The notes under the pieces were generated by a model. The model was not told the origin of the DNA. It saw only the letters and a list, made by a program, of their open reading frames with translations, and ran no database searches. Source: a virus. From it: a stretch of DNA of 30,261 nucleotides. Of this stretch, positions 6,840-19,395 are shown piece by piece (the stretch's first letter is position 1; the number at the start of each line of letters is the position of its first letter). The stretch lies in the IMG/VR virus record IMGVR_UViG_3300043425_000336, positions 1 to 30,261 of that record, one strand, 5' to 3'. A program made the position numbers and the translations under genes.

Positions 6840-7946
6840 TTAGTCCCACATTCCGTACACGCCACCGTAAAACTTGTCGTTGGCAGACTGAGAATGAGCA
6901 CCACGAATCGCATAGGCAGACGCATAATCGTCCCACGCATAAGTGTTGCCATTGACATCTATGTAGCCCATATACATCAAATCCTCAACCGTACCGACAT
7001 AGTTGCCGTCAGCGTCAAAGTACTCGCCATAGTTGTTGACATCAAGACCGAACACCTCAGGAAACTCTGAGGATAGGTACTCGTCGCCGGCTAATTCCCA
7101 CGAACTAGGAATCTCGACATCACCGAAGGCAGACGCATAACGGACATACTGAGGAGTGACATTGCTAGGCTTACCAGCACCGATACCGTGACCGCCTGAG
7201 GTCATAGCACGATAGTTGCCATAGGCATACCACGCATTGTCTACGAACTTAGGGTCAGTCTCAGGCAGGTCCTCGAACCCGTCAAGACGACCGGCACGAA
7301 CAGTCAGCAACTTACGCTCCTGAACCTCGGTCATAAAGTCAGCCTTGACACCGGCCCGCTTGAGAGCAGACTTGAGGATAGACTCGGTTGACGCAAAGAC
7401 AAACGAGCCGTCCCGCAATTGTGCTATAAACAGCGGTGAGTGACTGATACGAGCAACCTTGAGAACACCTAGGTCATTCTCGTCAAGCCACGCAACAGCG
7501 GCATCACCGTCGAGCATAGAGAACTTGTCTGTATTTCGATCGAACTGCTGGAGAATGGCAGGAATAACCGAGGTGTCAACCTCAGGCAACTTACCGTCTA
7601 ACTCAGCACGAACTAGGTCGTGGTTGTAAATCACACCGTTGTGAACTAGAGAGATACTAGAGTCCGGCGACTGAACAGGGTGATTATTTGCCTGAACAGA
7701 TGTCTTGCCGTGAGTTGCGTAGCGTGTGTGTAAGATAACACTCTGAGCAGACTTAGGCATACCCTTGAGGTTCAACTTAGCACCGGCTACGGCATTCTTG
7801 TAGAACCCTGAGGCGTTGCGAGACTGATAGGCATAACCCGAGGCTTGATTGCCACGGATGTCCATCTCAGTAAGCAAAGCGTTGCTAAGTTTACGAGGGT
7901 TGACTTTGGATGTATTTGATAGAGAGAAACCACCGATTCCACACAT
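6840..7946 (-). CDS. Class II glutamine amidotransferase
   Basis: An N-terminal-nucleophile (Ntn) glutaminase domain that releases ammonia from glutamine. The chosen ATG makes Cys the second residue (MCGIGGF), which becomes the catalytic nucleophile after Met removal. Other family marks are RGNQASGYAY (31-40), HTRYATHG (73-80), NNHPV (87-91), VHNGVIYN (101-108) and EVDTSVI (122-128). No SIS or synthetase domain follows, so an acceptor enzyme must be separate. The C-terminal third is Tyr/Asp-rich with two DxxGN loops (YFDADGNYVG, YIDVNGNTYA). AGGTGG lies 5 nt upstream of the ATG, and a strong promoter precedes it. The amidoligase gene 1 kb away is a natural partner candidate. Confidence 0.88.
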   Translation of the reverse strand: MCGIGGFSLSNTSKVNPRKLSNALLTEMDIRGNQASGYAYQSRNASGFYKNAVAGAKLNLKGMPKSAQSVILHTRYATHGKTSVQANNHPVQSPDSSISLVHNGVIYNHDLVRAELDGKLPEVDTSVIPAILQQFDRNTDKFSMLDGDAAVAWLDENDLGVLKVARISHSPLFIAQLRDGSFVFASTESILKSALKRAGVKADFMTEVQERKLLTVRAGRLDGFEDLPETDPKFVDNAWYAYGNYRAMTSGGHGIGAGKPSNVTPQYVRYASAFGDVEIPSSWELAGDEYLSSEFPEVFGLDVNNYGEYFDADGNYVGTVEDLMYMGYIDVNGNTYAWDDYASAYAIRGAHSQSANDKFYGGVYGMWD

Positions 7947-7992
7947 AAATACCACCTGCTTTCTTGTTGTGTTGTGTTGCTATGTAATAAAA

Positions 7993-8021
7993 ATTGTATA
8001 GGGTTATGGACTGCTTGTCAA
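7993..8021 (-). promoter_or_regulatory. Strong housekeeping-type promoter
   Basis: On the minus strand a perfect TTGACA (8021-8016), a 17-bp spacer and TACAAT (7998-7993) match the sigma-70/sigma-A consensus closely. It lies about 45 bp upstream of the amidotransferase start. It is the best promoter in the window and probably drives early leftward transcription. Confidence 0.85.
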
Positions 8022-8027
8022 GTCCAT
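8006..8027. promoter_or_regulatory. Inverted repeat over the -35 box, likely operator
   Basis: ATGGACT (minus strand, 8027-8021) and AGTCCAT (8012-8006) form a perfect 7-bp inverted repeat around TGACAAGC, so the dyad overlaps the TTGACA of the promoter. A repressor bound here would block RNA polymerase. No repressor gene is identified in the window. Confidence 0.55.
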
Positions 8028-8034
8028 TCGTGAA

Positions 8035-8136
8035 TTAGTTTTCACAATCGTGCCCGAATGACCATTCGTTTAGGTCAGCGTCGTTCAAGAGGTCGAACTC
8101 TCGTTGACATTCGATACAGGTTTGGATAAATGACAT
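8035..8136 (-). CDS. Small Cys-containing protein (33 aa)
   Basis: Reads MSFIQTCIECQREFDLLNDA and ends SFGHDCEN. The CIEC knuckle and the terminal GHDC look like a minimal zinc-binding unit, a pattern I associate with small actinophage proteins (CxxC...W.fGHDC). An adjacent in-frame ATG at 8139 could be used instead. The Shine-Dalgarno is weak (GAG 8 nt upstream). A TTGACA-bearing promoter at 8230 points at it. It is probably the first gene of the leftward operon. Confidence 0.6.
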   Translation of the reverse strand: MSFIQTCIECQREFDLLNDADLNEWSFGHDCEN

Positions 8137-8202
8137 CATAATTGAATCTCGCTTTCGTGTTCTTGTGATTCTTTTTGGGTTTGTTTTGCCCTTGTTCATA
8201 AA

Positions 8203-8230
8203 GTATTACATCTCAATGTCATCTTGTCAA
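8203..8230 (-). promoter_or_regulatory. Second leftward promoter
   Basis: On the minus strand TTGACA (8230-8225), a 16-bp spacer and TAATAC (8208-8203). It shares the ten bases ACTTGACAAG with the promoter at 8021, which suggests common control. It would transcribe the 33-aa gene at 8136 and perhaps onward. Confidence 0.6.
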
Positions 8231-8251
8231 GTCTATTTGGGAAATTAGTCA

Positions 8252-8277
8252 TACAAAGTTTCGATCGTTTCTTTGTA
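8252..8277. promoter_or_regulatory. 26-bp dyad with central CGATCG
   Basis: TACAAAG (8252-8258) and CTTTGTA (8271-8277) are perfect inverse arms, and the palindrome CGATCG (8262-8267) sits exactly at their centre. Only the TTT spacers break the symmetry. It lies just upstream (relative to leftward transcription) of the second leftward promoter and near a rightward TACAAT (8285-8290). A dimeric regulator site between divergent units is likely. Confidence 0.6.
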
Positions 8278-8298
8278 GGTTTCATACAATATGCCCCG

Positions 8299-8407
8299 CA
8301 AAAATCTGCCCCGTTTTCTCATAGCACATATCTCAACAGAAAACAATCTCATTCGGGATAAGTTTGATAACATTTTGGTAACAAAAATCTGCCCCGAAAT
8401 CTGCCCC
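8299..8407. repeat. CAAAAATCTGCCCCG repeats
   Basis: CAAAAATCTGCCCCG occurs exactly at 8299-8313 and 8382-8396, and a shorter copy AAATCTGCCCC follows at 8397-8407. All three are in the same orientation. They are absent from coding sequence that I read and may be iterons or regulator sites at the left edge of the noncoding region. Confidence 0.7.
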
Positions 8408-8482
8408 CGTCCCAATCTCACGGCATTCTCAAAGGGTGCGACACGCCCGGGAAGGGGCGGGGCCCCCAGCAGTCTTTATACG

Positions 8483-8724
8483 AATGCCTTTTAGGGGGAC
8501 AAGCCCCCATAAAAGGGCATTGTAAAAGCCTGCGACAAAGCCACTCGCATCCGCTCGGACTTTGCTACGCACAGGCTTCGCCCGGCTGATTCATTCAGGC
8601 TTGCGCCCTGAACCTTTTAGGCTCCGGCAAAGCCGTCGCCGGGTGAAAGTCAAAATCAAAAGCGATAATGCGTGGCTAGTCGCCACGCTCATTCTTTGGC
8701 TGAAACTGGGGATAAATTCCCCAG
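8483..8724. ncRNA. Chain of stable hairpins, candidate structured RNA or origin
   Basis: Five structures follow each other almost without gaps. Hairpin 1 (8483-8521) pairs AATGCC, TTTTA and GGGGG with their inverses. Hairpin 2 (8526-8578) pairs AAGCCTG with CAGGCTT plus CAAAG with CTTTG. Element 3 (8577-8647) has a 10-bp outer stem (TTCGCCCGGC/GCCGGGTGAA, one G-U) enclosing TTCAGG/CCTGAA and GGCT/AGCC hairpins, a three-way junction. Hairpin 4 (8670-8688) is GCGTGGC/GCCACGC. Hairpin 5 (8706-8724) is CTGGGGA/TCCCCAG. Transcription is not demonstrated; a TACAAT at 8285 could drive it rightward. It could equally act as DNA. Confidence 0.4.
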
Positions 8725-8842
8725 CCCCCAAATCAGAGGCACAAAGCGAATTAGTTATCTAACCGTTATAAATCCAAAGACTCCGCTGATTAGGGAATCA
8801 GGGCCCCGATTTTTGCGACACGCCCGACAGCGTGGGTCAAAC

Positions 8843-8863
8843 TGTGGAAAACCCTGTGGATAG
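8843..8863. promoter_or_regulatory. Two DnaA-box-like sites
   Basis: TGTGGAAAA (8843-8851) and TGTGGATAG (8855-8863) each match the inverse DnaA box TGTGGATAA at 8 of 9 positions and lie 12 bp apart. Paired boxes next to repeats are common at bacterial and some phage or plasmid origins. They would imply use of host DnaA. Confidence 0.45.
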
Positions 8864-8885
8864 TTGTTCACCTATTGTTCACCTA
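8864..8885 (+). repeat. Perfect tandem repeat of TTGTTCACCTA
   Basis: TTGTTCACCTA is repeated head to tail at 8864-8874 and 8875-8885, directly after the DnaA-like boxes. The second copy runs into ACCTAAATAGGT, a small inverted repeat. The 11-bp period equals one helical turn, which suits tandem protein binding. Confidence 0.75.
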
Positions 8886-8918
8886 AATAGGTATTCGACA
8901 CGCCATTTTTTTAGTACG

Positions 8919-8935
8919 CTTGACCGTAGGTCAAG
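8919..8935. repeat. Hairpin CTTGACC-GTA-GGTCAAG
   Basis: Perfect 7-bp arms with a three-base GTA loop, about 35 bp upstream of the amidoligase start. Other hairpins with TAC or GTA loops occur at 10063 and 10106, so this looks like a shared small element rather than a chance palindrome. Confidence 0.6.
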
Positions 8936-8970
8936 CAACCGCAAGACCCCAAAAATAGGAGAAACAAAAA

Positions 8971-9822: not shown

Positions 9823-9833
9823 CCAGCCCCCAC

Positions 9834-9867
9834 AAAGTAGCCCCCGAGAAATCGGGGGTTTACTTTT
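9834..9867 (+). terminator. Rho-independent terminator after amidoligase
   Basis: CCCCCGA-GAAA-TCGGGGG is a perfect 7-bp GC-rich stem with a GAAA tetraloop, flanked by AAAGTA and TACTTT that extend the stem, and ends in TTTACTTTTG. It begins 12 nt after the stop codon, so it probably ends the amidoligase transcript. Confidence 0.85.
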
Positions 9868-10279
9868 GTTCCGCTTGGCTCGCCCGTTGCCTTTGCCCTT
9901 TGTCCAGGCTAAATCCAGATCTGCTGCCGACAAAACCGGTCGGCTGCAGGTCTTGATTTTGCTTCGCAACGCTTGGACAATGGCTCAAGCTTAGACTTCG
10001 CTACGCTCGCCCAAGCAATCGCCACCGGTCAAAGCAACGACACGCCGAGCCAGCGCCCGCCCAAATTCCTACGGAATTTCCCCGGGACCCCACCCAAAAA
10101 GCGGCACGGCTACGCCGTCGCCCGATAGTGTCCAGCAGGGTCAATGGTACTTTTAGAGCGACCCCAAAAGAAATCATTTTATTCCGAAAATCCTCTATAA
10201 GGTATGGCGCTCACCACCGCATCCACTTTTTCTAACTTTTGTAACTTTTTGGTCACTTTCATGTGATAGGCTTTTCCCC
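9868..10279. other. Noncoding hairpin-rich stretch
   Basis: About 410 bp without a convincing gene. It contains a long imperfect hairpin (9917-9953), a GCTTG/CAAGC pair near 9969-9990, the fourth CGACACGCC copy (10038-10046), AAATTCC-TAC-GGAATTT (10063-10079), and ACGGC-TAC-GCCGT (10106-10118). Near its end, TATAAG (10196-10201) and TTGTAA...TGTGAT (about 10240-10268) are possible promoter pieces for the rightward late genes. Its texture matches the stretch left of the amidoligase. Confidence 0.55.
9917..9953. repeat. 15-bp imperfect hairpin
   Basis: AGATCTGCTGCCGAC (9917-9931) pairs with GTCGGCTGCAGGTCT (9939-9953) with one mismatch and one G-U, around a 7-base loop. The bases after it (TGATTTTG) are only weakly T-rich, so a terminator is possible but not convincing. 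Confidence 0.6.
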
Positions 10280-16663: not shown

Positions 16664-17767
16664 ATGACTGAAAAAATTACAGCTCGCCACATTGAGGCAG
16701 CAAAGGTTCTTGAGGGTGCCCTTCGTGGAGACCGTCAGGACAAGCTAAAGCTACAGGAAGGTATCTCTACTTCAGACCTACCTGTGCAGTTGGCTCCAAC
16801 CATTAACAAGATCCTTTTGGAGAACTACGCAGTTCAGCCAAAGGTTTGGGACCGTTTCTCAACCCGTCTAGTTATGGATGACTTCCGTCCACAGCAGTTC
16901 ATGAACCTTCGTTACGAAGACGATGGCAAGGACAACGCAGGCGACAAGTTCCGTGAAGGTTCACTTCCAACTGTTGGCGAGTACGACGAGTACCCAACTG
17001 CAGGTTGGTTCTCAGTAACTGAGAAGAGCCTGTCAGTTAAGAAGGCCGGTCAGCGTATCCGTTTCTCATGGGAAGCGATTATCAACGACGGAAACATCTC
17101 TCTACTAGAGCGTCTACCTATCGAACTTGCCCAAAAGGCTGCCGGTAAGGAAGATGAAGAAGTTACCAAGCAGCTAGTTGCTGCTGGTGGTCTAAACACC
17201 ACTAACTTCAACTCAGGTAACGGAAACCTACTTGCAGGTAACTTGGCACTGACTCTAGAGAACCTAGAGAAGGCTATCCAGTTCGCTAACGAGCAGTCAT
17301 ACAACGGTAACTTGATTACTCCTGTAACTCGTTTCGCTCTTGTTATCCCACGCTCACTAGAGCTACAGGCTAAGAAGATTCTTGCAACTCAGACCGTTGA
17401 GACTTCAACCACTGTTGGCGGCGTTGTCACTAAGACAATCACCGGTAACCCAATCGGTTCACAGATTGAAATCGTTGTAAACGACTGGATTACCAAGATC
17501 AACTCAGGCGCTGCTGCGTACTGGTTCTTGATTCCAGTTCCTGGACAGTCACTAAACCCATCAGTTGCGCTAGGCTTCCTACGTGGATACGAGACTCCAG
17601 AACTACGCATCAAGGCAAACGGCGGCACCTTCCTAGGTGGCGGCGATGTTCCTGCTCGTGATGGTTCGTTCGACAACGACGACTTCGAGATGCGTATTCG
17701 TCACATTGCTACTGGTGGCTTCTTGCTACCAACCGGTACCGTTGCTTCAACTGGTGCAGGCGCTTAA
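16664..17767 (+). CDS. Major capsid protein (HK97-like fold)
   Basis: A 367-aa protein following protease and decoration genes and closed by a strong terminator. The N-terminal helix (ITARHIEAAKVLEGALRGDR) leads to a segment MDDFRPQQFMNLRYEDDGKD resembling the E-loop region. The P-domain helix KAAGKEDEEVTKQLVAAGGL and a beta-rich A-domain (LITPVTRFALVIPRSLELQA; GSQIEIVVNDWIT) follow. RHIATGGFLLPTGTVAS closes the chain. AAGGAAG lies before the ATG. Position and pattern make it the major coat subunit. Confidence 0.88.
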   Translation: MTEKITARHIEAAKVLEGALRGDRQDKLKLQEGISTSDLPVQLAPTINKILLENYAVQPKVWDRFSTRLVMDDFRPQQFMNLRYEDDGKDNAGDKFREGSLPTVGEYDEYPTAGWFSVTEKSLSVKKAGQRIRFSWEAIINDGNISLLERLPIELAQKAAGKEDEEVTKQLVAAGGLNTTNFNSGNGNLLAGNLALTLENLEKAIQFANEQSYNGNLITPVTRFALVIPRSLELQAKKILATQTVETSTTVGGVVTKTITGNPIGSQIEIVVNDWITKINSGAAAYWFLIPVPGQSLNPSVALGFLRGYETPELRIKANGGTFLGGGDVPARDGSFDNDDFEMRIRHIATGGFLLPTGTVASTGAGA

Positions 17768-17781
17768 TAGCTCCACTCTCG

Positions 17782-17816
17782 AAAAGCCCTCGACCTTCGG
17801 GTCGGGGGTTTTTCTT
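17782..17816 (+). terminator. Rho-independent terminator after major capsid gene
   Basis: CCCTCGACC-TTCG-GGTCGGGGG is a 9-bp stem with one G-U and a stable UUCG loop, preceded by AAAAG and followed by TTTTTCTTT. It lies 15 nt after the capsid stop. Ending transcription here would give the head operon its own level. Confidence 0.9.
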
Positions 17817-17884
17817 TGTGCTATACTGGCCTTGAAAAGGGGCACAGATCTAGGTTGAAAGACCTATGCTATGCTAGTAACACC

Positions 17885-17932
17885 AACCGGAAGTTTGTCT
17901 GTGAAACACCAGAGGGGCTTCCGGTTTTCTCT
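17885..17932 (+). terminator. Terminator-like hairpin 2
   Basis: AACCGGAAG (17885-17893) and CTTCCGGTT (17918-17926) form a perfect 9-bp stem around 24 nt, followed by TTCTCTT. Starting from the TATGCT box at 17870, a transcript ending here would be about 45-50 nt, a possible small RNA. Confidence 0.6.
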
Positions 17933-17949
17933 TGTCAAGAAATTGACGA

Positions 17950-17968
17950 TGTCAGTATTTTACTGACA
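17950..17968. repeat. Perfect hairpin TGTCAGTA-TTT-TACTGACA
   Basis: Eight-bp perfect arms with a TTT centre, immediately upstream of the TGCTAAAAT box. Its position over the would-be -35 area suggests an operator dyad rather than a terminator. Confidence 0.6.
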
Positions 17969-18030
17969 AACCTATGCTAAAATAATTGTGTAAGGTTTCT
18001 CCTGCCTTACTGTGTTGTGTTCACATGAGC

Positions 18031-18065
18031 CACCCCCGTTGAGCTTCTTTTTTGCTCCGGGGGTG
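18031..18065 (+). terminator. GC-rich hairpin before the collagen-like gene
   Basis: CACCCCCG (18031-18038) and CGGGGGTG (18058-18065) pair perfectly. Inside them GAGC and GCTC pair around a T-rich loop. The downstream TGCTTGTTTA is only partly T-rich, so it may be a weak terminator or an attenuator. Confidence 0.55.
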
Positions 18066-18079
18066 TGCTTGTTTACTAG

Positions 18080-18093
18080 GGTATAATAATAGA
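18080..18093 (+). promoter_or_regulatory. Leaderless late promoter 1 (TATAAT, 6 nt to ATG)
   Basis: GGTATAATAATAGA ends directly at the ATG at 18094, with TATAAT at 18082-18087. Transcription would begin at or next to the start codon, and no Shine-Dalgarno is present. No -35 box is seen. Confidence 0.65.
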
Positions 18094-19395
18094 ATGATTA
18101 TCTTCCCAGACTCCAATTTACCTGCGCAATCGCAGGATTGGGGTGACAAGGTTGAGCTTGAAATTAAAAAGCTCGACAAGCGCAAAGCCGGTGGCGGCGG
18201 AGGCGGCGGAGATGGCGCAGCAGGACCTCAGGGACCAGCGGGTCCTCAGGGACCACAAGGAGAACCAGGAGCAGATGGTGCACAAGGACCACAAGGAGAA
18301 CAAGGTTTACAAGGCCCTCAGGGCGAGACTGGACCAGCTGGACCAACAGGTCCACAAGGAGATCAGGGTATTCAAGGGCCTGCTGGCCCTCAAGGTGAAG
18401 TCGGGCCTACGGGTCCTACAGGCCCGCAAGGTGACATGGGGCCTATGGGGCCTACAGGTCCAGAAGGACCAACTGGTCCTATGGGACCGCAGGGAATCCA
18501 AGGTCTTACAGGTGCTACCGGTCCGGCCGGTGCTGATGGTGCTGACGGCGCTACGGGTCCGCAAGGGCCTCAAGGTCCTATTGGGCCTACTGGAGCAACG
18601 GGTCCTGCTGGGCCTACTGGCCCTGCTGGACCTCAAGGATACAATGGTCTATCGGCCTATCAGGTTGCACAAATTGATGGTTTCACTGGAACAGAAGCGG
18701 AATGGCTAGATAGTCTTATTGGCCCTCAGGGGCCTGCTGGAGCGGATTCAACCGTTCCTGGACCTACTGGACCAACTGGCGCTACGGGCCCGGCAGGGCC
18801 AGGCGTAGCCGCTGGTGGAACCGCTGGGCAGATTCTCTCCAAGGTTGATGGGACAGATTACAACACAACTTGGATTGATAACTTTGCTCCAAACGTAGAA
18901 CTTTACGCAAAGAACCAAACAGCAACAACAATGCCAAAGGGTGCAGTTGTTTATATTGTCGGTGTTGACAATAGCGGCGACACACCACGCCTCGAACTTG
19001 CTAGCGCAACCACTGAGCCTACATCATCTAAGGTTATTGGTCGACTAAAGCAGGAACTTGTTTCTGGTGCTTTTGGCTGGGTAATTACCGAGGGTATGCT
19101 TGATGGGCTAAATACTAACGGTAGCACTTCTGGTCAGTCAATCTGGTTAGGCACAACTCCAGGTGAAGTTGTTTATGGCTTGCCACCAGCGAAACCAGCG
19201 CATTCGGTTTATCTTGGTCTTGTTGTGCGTACACAAACCAATAACGGCAAGGTGTATGTAAAAGTTCAAAATGGTTACGAGCTAAATGAACTTCATGATG
19301 TCAATGTAGCCTCAGCGGTTTCTGGCGACTTCTTAAAACTAAATGGTTCTGGCATTTGGGTTAACTCAAATGTTGTAGATGGCGGAACCCCTTAG
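18094..19395 (+). CDS. Collagen-like tail or head fibre protein
   Basis: A 433-aa fibre protein. Residues 1-32 ([20 protein letters not shown]) form a helical head, followed by a Gly run and then 48 uninterrupted Gly-X-Y triplets (about 41-184), able to form a triple helix. [20 protein letters not shown] is the usual break, and a second short collagen stretch follows. The C-terminal 170 residues form a beta-rich domain with [20 protein letters not shown] and [15 protein letters not shown], common in phage fibres, and end NVVDGGTP. The start is the leaderless ATG after TATAAT; an upstream reading from 18052 is not supported. Likely an adhesion fibre. Confidence 0.88.

Follow-up and report, generated by a model that had tools for sequence, protein, structure and literature searches.

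A conserved chain of hairpins in the divergent intergenic gap of a tailed phage, a candidate part of a replication origin

What is the role of a closely packed row of hairpins in the noncoding DNA between two divergent gene arms of a tailed phage? The DNA analysed here (the window) is an entire virus record of 30,261 bases without end repeats, probably a fragment of a phage genome; the best-matching isolated relatives, by terminase, infect Arthrobacter. An earlier note on this DNA had described the row and proposed that it might be a structured noncoding RNA, a single-strand origin or a site where protein assembles on folded DNA.

Gene setting and occurrence

The hairpins stand in a gap flanked by an amidotransferase gene and an amidoligase gene that are transcribed away from each other, with SSB and helicase genes on the left arm and terminase and capsid genes on the right arm.

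6840-7955, minus strand: glutamine amidotransferase gene, left border of the divergent gap
7956-8970, no strand: divergent intergenic gap, 1,015 bp, noncoding
8438-8706, no strand: core element, 6 differences in 269 nt from the closest relative, L066
8971-9822, plus strand: amidoligase gene, right border of the divergent gap

This divergent pair with a gap of 0.7-1.3 kb is common to about 33 distinct related contigs, and the hairpin element was found in only two further ones, IMGVR_UViG_3300047558_000165 (L066/L002/L004, record G008) and IMGVR_UViG_3300020044_004534 (L005, record G001), the latter a 36-kb contig in which this is the largest noncoding gap. A covariance model built from the three carriers was run on 62 sources and identified no further one; with the L005 GATase as query, a second search returned no new contig at high identity, and loop-motif pattern searches gave, besides the two carriers, only unrelated terminator-like or coding matches. 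GTDB genomes, searched with a gapped motif only, held no copy of the element. Coding sequence was rejected, as single-base deletions in L066 within the element exclude a conserved frame, and a mobile element was rejected because no further copy occurs in the window's own record or in phage and plasmid records; a search for tRNA and tmRNA found none.

A DNA packaging site (cos or pac) would suit noncoding DNA that carries CGACACGCC repeats and has the presumed small terminase gene about 2 kb away. However, the approximately 33 contigs cross the region unbroken, and the amidoligase and other genes stand between the chain and the terminase genes, making this a most improbable function.

Hairpins, folding strength and paired changes

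Eight local hairpins, numbered H1 to H7 with two at H3, are distributed along the gap as follows, with the forms seen in the other carriers.

H1, 8483-8521: outer stem AATGCC+TTTTA / TAAAA+GGCATT with bulges, inner stem GGGGG/CCCCC, loop ACAAG; in L005 the outer stem is ATAACCCC/GGGGTTAT and the loop is unchanged
H2 core, 8536-8564 (within 8526-8578): CAAAG/CTTTG, with a loop containing CACTCGCATCCGCTCG, invariant in all three carriers; L005 stem CGAAGG/CCTTCG
H3a, 8594-8612 (inside 8577-8647): TTCAGG/CCTGAA; L005 AAGGC/GCCTT
H3b, 8625-8635 (inside 8577-8647): CGGC-AAA-GCCG; L005 CACCGCC-CAA-GGCGGTG
H4, 8670-8688: GCGTGGC-TAGTC-GCCACGC; L005 GCATGGC-TTAGTC-GCCATGC, a compensated pair
H5, 8706-8724: CTGGGGA-TAAAT-TCCCCAG; L066 CTGGGAT-AAA-ATCCCAG; L005 CTGGGG-AGGA-CCCCAG
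H6, 8786-8801: CTGATT-AGGG-AATCAG; in the same place L066 has CGACATT-TAT-AATGTCG and L005 AACACTCCCC/GGGGAGTGTT with a long loop
H7, 8918-8936: GCTTGACC-GTA-GGTCAAGC, just 5' of the amidoligase ribosome-binding site; L066 GGCTTGCC-ATA-GGCAAGCC

All of the hairpins that the earlier note had placed at 8483-8521, 8526-8578, 8670-8688 and 8706-8724, as well as the two inside 8577-8647, are present in the sequence. The chain itself is real, but it goes past the end it had been given at 8724, with further hairpins at 8786-8801 and 8918-8936.

Folding strength was compared with that of shuffled sequence, the comparison on which the claim of unusual structure had been made to depend. Positions 8470-8730 fold far better than shuffled DNA: their energy is -105.7 kcal/mol, whereas 200 dinucleotide shuffles average -79.1 +/- 4.8 (z -5.6) and never reach the observed value; the opposite strand gives z -5.6, and DNA parameters give z -5.0. 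The 240-nt window at 8483 has the lowest z and the lowest energy among 131 windows scanned, in keeping with the statement that this DNA holds far more structure than the rest, which is nevertheless slightly overstated because the windows at 9843 (z -6.6) and 17763 (z -6.4) are also strongly structured. Counting perfect hairpins of at least 7 pairs with a loop of 3-16, the gap holds 3.9 per kb versus 0.6 per kb elsewhere in the window (about 7-fold), and the gap of G001 is about 5-fold denser than the remainder of that record. The 33 intergenics together are enriched in perfect hairpins, with 46 observed versus 15.2 +/- 3.9.

The second strongly structured stretch, 9823-10130 (z -6.9), lies on the far side of the amidoligase gene. 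It opens with a hairpin at 9841-9858 that resembles a bidirectional terminator and is retained in L005 (GACCCCCGAGCAATCGGGGGTTT), and a small gene with a TPPKKR motif may also be present in it. A sub-threshold Rfam match to Collinsella-1 RNA at 9841-10022 on the minus strand (15.1 bits, E 0.58, gathering 35) is probably due to chance. The third, 17763-18243 (z -6.4 and -4.1), adjoins the start of a gene with collagen-like repeats.

Sequence conservation sets the element apart from its surroundings. Between the window and L066, flanking noncoding DNA is about 45-90% identical, with stretches falling to 45-75%, and at fourfold sites the two genes next to the gap show 57 differences in 158 positions and 31 in 105 (64-70% identical). 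The L005 element is about 67% identical to that of the window, and the H1, H2 and H4 loops hardly vary. The consensus fold of the three carriers over 8470-8725 scores z -8.2 on the plus strand and -8.0 on the minus strand against column-shuffled alignments, and the window with L005 alone still gives z -6.3/-6.8; flanking blocks have a much weaker consensus fold. A hairpin-by-hairpin comparison found that H1, the H2 core, H3a, H3b, H4, H5, H6 and H7 all persist with paired changes. In stems registered by hand, 33 two-sided changes stand against 1 one-sided change and 179 of 182 cells are Watson-Crick, but because pairing guided the choice of these registers, the test on shuffled columns gives the cleaner evidence. 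Three homologues were present in the collections searched and two are nearly identical over the core, so that most of the covariation comes from a single comparison. The hairpin chain is a real structure, since two relatives keep the hairpins while the letters change in matched pairs.

The same comparison does not uphold the outer architecture. Stem bases changing without compensation had been named as the observation that would count against the structure, and most stems are compensated, whereas the outer stems 8577-8586/8638-8647 and 8526-8532/8572-8578 are not. The first of these, the outer stem of the proposed three-way junction (8577-8647), can form in the window; it overlaps the neighbouring outer stem at 8577-8578, the junction is not in the minimum-energy fold of the plus strand, and in L066 the loss of a G (deletion) and a G-to-C change disrupt the stem, which is absent in L005. 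The second is not conserved and is lost in L005. The outer stem of the junction is thus not supported, and because the outer architecture fails in the relatives, the element is a chain of local hairpins and not a junction fold.

The pattern of change bears on whether the palindromes have much function at all. They could have been perfected by template-switch mutation during replication, the paired changes then being mutational and not selected, and the perfect stems with nearly all changes two-sided are what template switching would give. However, the 269-nt element, loops and linkers included, is far more conserved than adjacent fourfold sites, and hairpin positions are maintained across three phages, which renders this origin of the stems very unlikely.

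The folded strand is not indicated by the structure. The minus strand folds more stably, but shuffles showed that base composition accounts for the difference, and a strand inference from energy and G-U content was rejected since composition explains both; an excess of unpaired A on the plus strand is within noise. Since the conserved stems consist almost wholly of Watson-Crick pairs, they are symmetric with respect to strand.

Promoters, repeats and DnaA-box-like sites

The gap carries the following further features.

8202-8230, minus strand: leftward sigma-70-like promoter, TTGACA-17-AATACT
8021-7993, minus strand: second leftward promoter, TTGACA-17-TACAAT
8843-8851 and 8855-8863, minus strand: near-consensus DnaA-box-like pair, TTTTCCACA and CTATCCACA
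8437-8449 and 8814-8826, plus strand: direct repeat TGCGACACGCCCG, with a weaker copy at 8894-8906

Both consensus promoters fire leftward, away from the hairpin chain. Between these tandem promoters is a 54-aa ORF with a CxxC motif (8035-8199, minus strand); L066 and L005 appear to retain the end of this ORF (HDCE).

The main rival to an origin is a structured RNA. It could be a noncoding RNA, or the amidoligase/late transcript that runs rightward could have a long structured leader; the hairpins would then bind protein or alter transcription elongation, for example by an antitermination-type mechanism. Taken together, these two versions are possible but somewhat unlikely. The element has several hairpins whose loops (ACAAG, CACTCGCATCCGCTCG, TAGTC) are conserved and whose stems covary, and in two phages it is almost the same, a pattern typical of structured RNA; the chain also runs on to the amidoligase ribosome-binding site. 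The known structured phage and bacterial noncoding RNAs in Rfam are likewise multi-hairpin folds with paired changes; they differ in that no family matches the chain in Rfam 15, at the gathering score or at a relaxed threshold. No consensus promoter able to transcribe the chain was found on either strand: the TACAAT at 8285, from which such an RNA had been suggested to start, is without a -35 partner, and the sole weak candidate, at 8934 on the minus strand, is not kept in L066. The strand preference vanishes once composition is allowed for, and G-U pairs are almost absent while changes are almost all two-sided, a count from the hand table that is biased by stem choice. Of the earlier proposal of a structured noncoding RNA, the paired changes fit, and promoter and Rfam evidence do not. 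If the element does act as RNA, it would be a new structured phage RNA without an Rfam family.

An improbable alternative is a transcription-control region separating the early arm on the left from the late arm on the right, with the hairpins acting as insulators, attenuators or operator-like inverted repeats. The chain does lie between divergent arms, in a gap that has leftward promoters at 8230 and 8021, and the gaps of relatives repeat TTTGGGAATTCGCG and CTCTCAGG, one directly adjoining a promoter -35. Most stems have no T-tract after them, however, with only 8670-8688 in the chain scoring terminator-like, and stem sequences vary between phages, unlike the sites of a duplex-binding protein.

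Repeats differ among the relatives. Neither the window nor L066 contains an iteron array, only three CGACACGCC copies being present. Arrays of 3-5 TTTGGGAATTCGCG-type repeats occur in the divergent gaps of L003, L006, L009, L014 and L016-L020 and also of L024, L025, L137 and L141, several of which carry CTCTCAGG/CCTGAGAG repeats as well; all these relatives are without the hairpin chain. The arrays are iteron-like or operator-like.

The DnaA-box-like pair has counterparts in some relatives. L066 has TTATCCACA (consensus) and CTATCCACA (near-consensus) at the same spacing as the window, and the diverged relatives L013 and L024 have two TTATCCACA-type boxes each. Such pairs occur in only 4 of 33 intergenics and not in the carrier L005, and across all intergenics together DnaA boxes are only slightly more numerous than expected by chance.

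A primase-helicase and the replication origin

Both other carriers, G001 and G008, are among the 10 of 13 related records that encode a conserved primase-helicase of 730-740 aa, in which an archaeo-eukaryotic primase domain is fused to DUF3987.

L188:1049-3265, minus strand: primase-helicase gene, with homologues including those in L192 and L193

The gene is absent from the window record and about 11 kb from the intergenic in G001; the window's own phage presumably has the same primase as the other two carriers. Ten related records gave no match to DnaB, DnaE/PolC or D5_N, and just one of 13 has PolA; the phages therefore probably rely on a host polymerase to replicate.

The N-terminal 300 residues of the primase from the L066 phage were modelled using ten homologues (mean pLDDT 81.5). 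Foldseek placed RepB' of plasmid RSF1010 as the best match of the model (3h20, E 6.7e-10; 3h25, 2.7e-7), and VIA-align gave S-2L PrimPol as best (6zp9, Z 17.4), with Z 15.6 over 171 residues for the RepB' catalytic domain (3h25_A) and Z 15.7 over 244 residues for 3h20, where an rmsd of 16.7 means that the placing of the two domains differs from RepB'. A sequence search against solved structures returned nothing meaningful, the match being one of predicted fold. The model suggests a RepB'-like catalytic fold, probably with a C-terminal helix bundle. The alignment of the primases contains an invariant RWH.YW, which is the His of motif II; in the RepB' family Gln replaces this His (PMC5862659), placing the phage primase in the archaeo-eukaryotic primase superfamily and not in the RepB' family proper. 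The modelled fold allows that the phage enzyme may work like a RepB' family member, though it is not one.

Two known systems offer parallels. On single-stranded DNA, RepB' recognises a short ssi hairpin and begins primer synthesis on its 3' side (PMC4434180). The RSF1010 oriV (ssiA/ssiB, RepB') resembles the phage locus in having hairpins in a noncoding control region and, by the fold model, in the N-terminus of the primase; it differs in having one ssi per strand, iterons, and helicase and primase as separate proteins, whereas the phages have at least seven hairpins, a fused primase-helicase with His in place of the motif II Gln, and no iteron array in the carriers. In plasmid pRN1 a stem-loop conserved in structure and not in sequence is needed for replication, and a similar stem-loop has been proposed for a tailed phage, Bordetella phage BIP-1 (PMC4234260). 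Here too the structure is noncoding, is kept though its sequence changes, and accompanies an archaeo-eukaryotic primase-helicase; however, in pRN1 the replication gene is directly followed by one large stem-loop of about 100 nt and the helicase belongs to SF3, whereas in the phages several small hairpins stand in a row, far away from the gene for the primase, and the helicase is of the DUF3987 type.

On these grounds the hairpin chain is tentatively read as a cis-acting part of a phage replication origin with single-strand-initiation-like hairpins, at a probability of roughly 0.4. This reading is favoured because of the hairpin-binding type of primase in both other carriers, the DnaA-box-like pair, the position of the chain and the strand-symmetric pairing. 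The gap would then be the origin, and the folded molecule recognised by the primase would be single-stranded DNA. The duplex would open beside the DnaA-box-like pair, by means of host DnaA or the phage primase-helicase, and the exposed single strands would fold into a row of short hairpins serving as single-strand-initiation-like sites. The archaeo-eukaryotic-type primase, fused to its DUF3987 helicase, would bind these hairpins and make the first primers, after which the host polymerase would take over.

The single-strand origin suggested by the earlier note thus gains several lines of support, but relatives with 65-80% identical primases are without the chain, and the intergenic of one of them, the 48.7-kb G002 (L187-L189), contains a single perfect hairpin, a density close to the average for its genome. 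A shared primase would need different sites in such relatives. The rarity of DnaA-box-like pairs among the intergenics and the distance of the primase gene from the chain also count against an origin. A broader proposal, in which the origin of this phage family combines at least seven ssi-like hairpins with the fused primase-DUF3987 protein, hairpin structure persists through the turnover of stem sequences and sister phages have iteron-like arrays instead, is rather doubtful.

In the literature found, replication start in tailed phages with archaeo-eukaryotic-type primases has been little mapped. If the origin reading is true, the hairpin chain is a concrete, testable origin candidate for such phages and brings a widespread group of uncultivated phages under the hairpin-priming logic of RSF1010 and pRN1.

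The cumulative GC skew of G002 is lowest at 32.1 kb, a point within about 2 kb of the gap, which speaks for an origin there, although the measure is confounded with gene direction. Its maximum is at 18.6 kb, the point where the arms converge.
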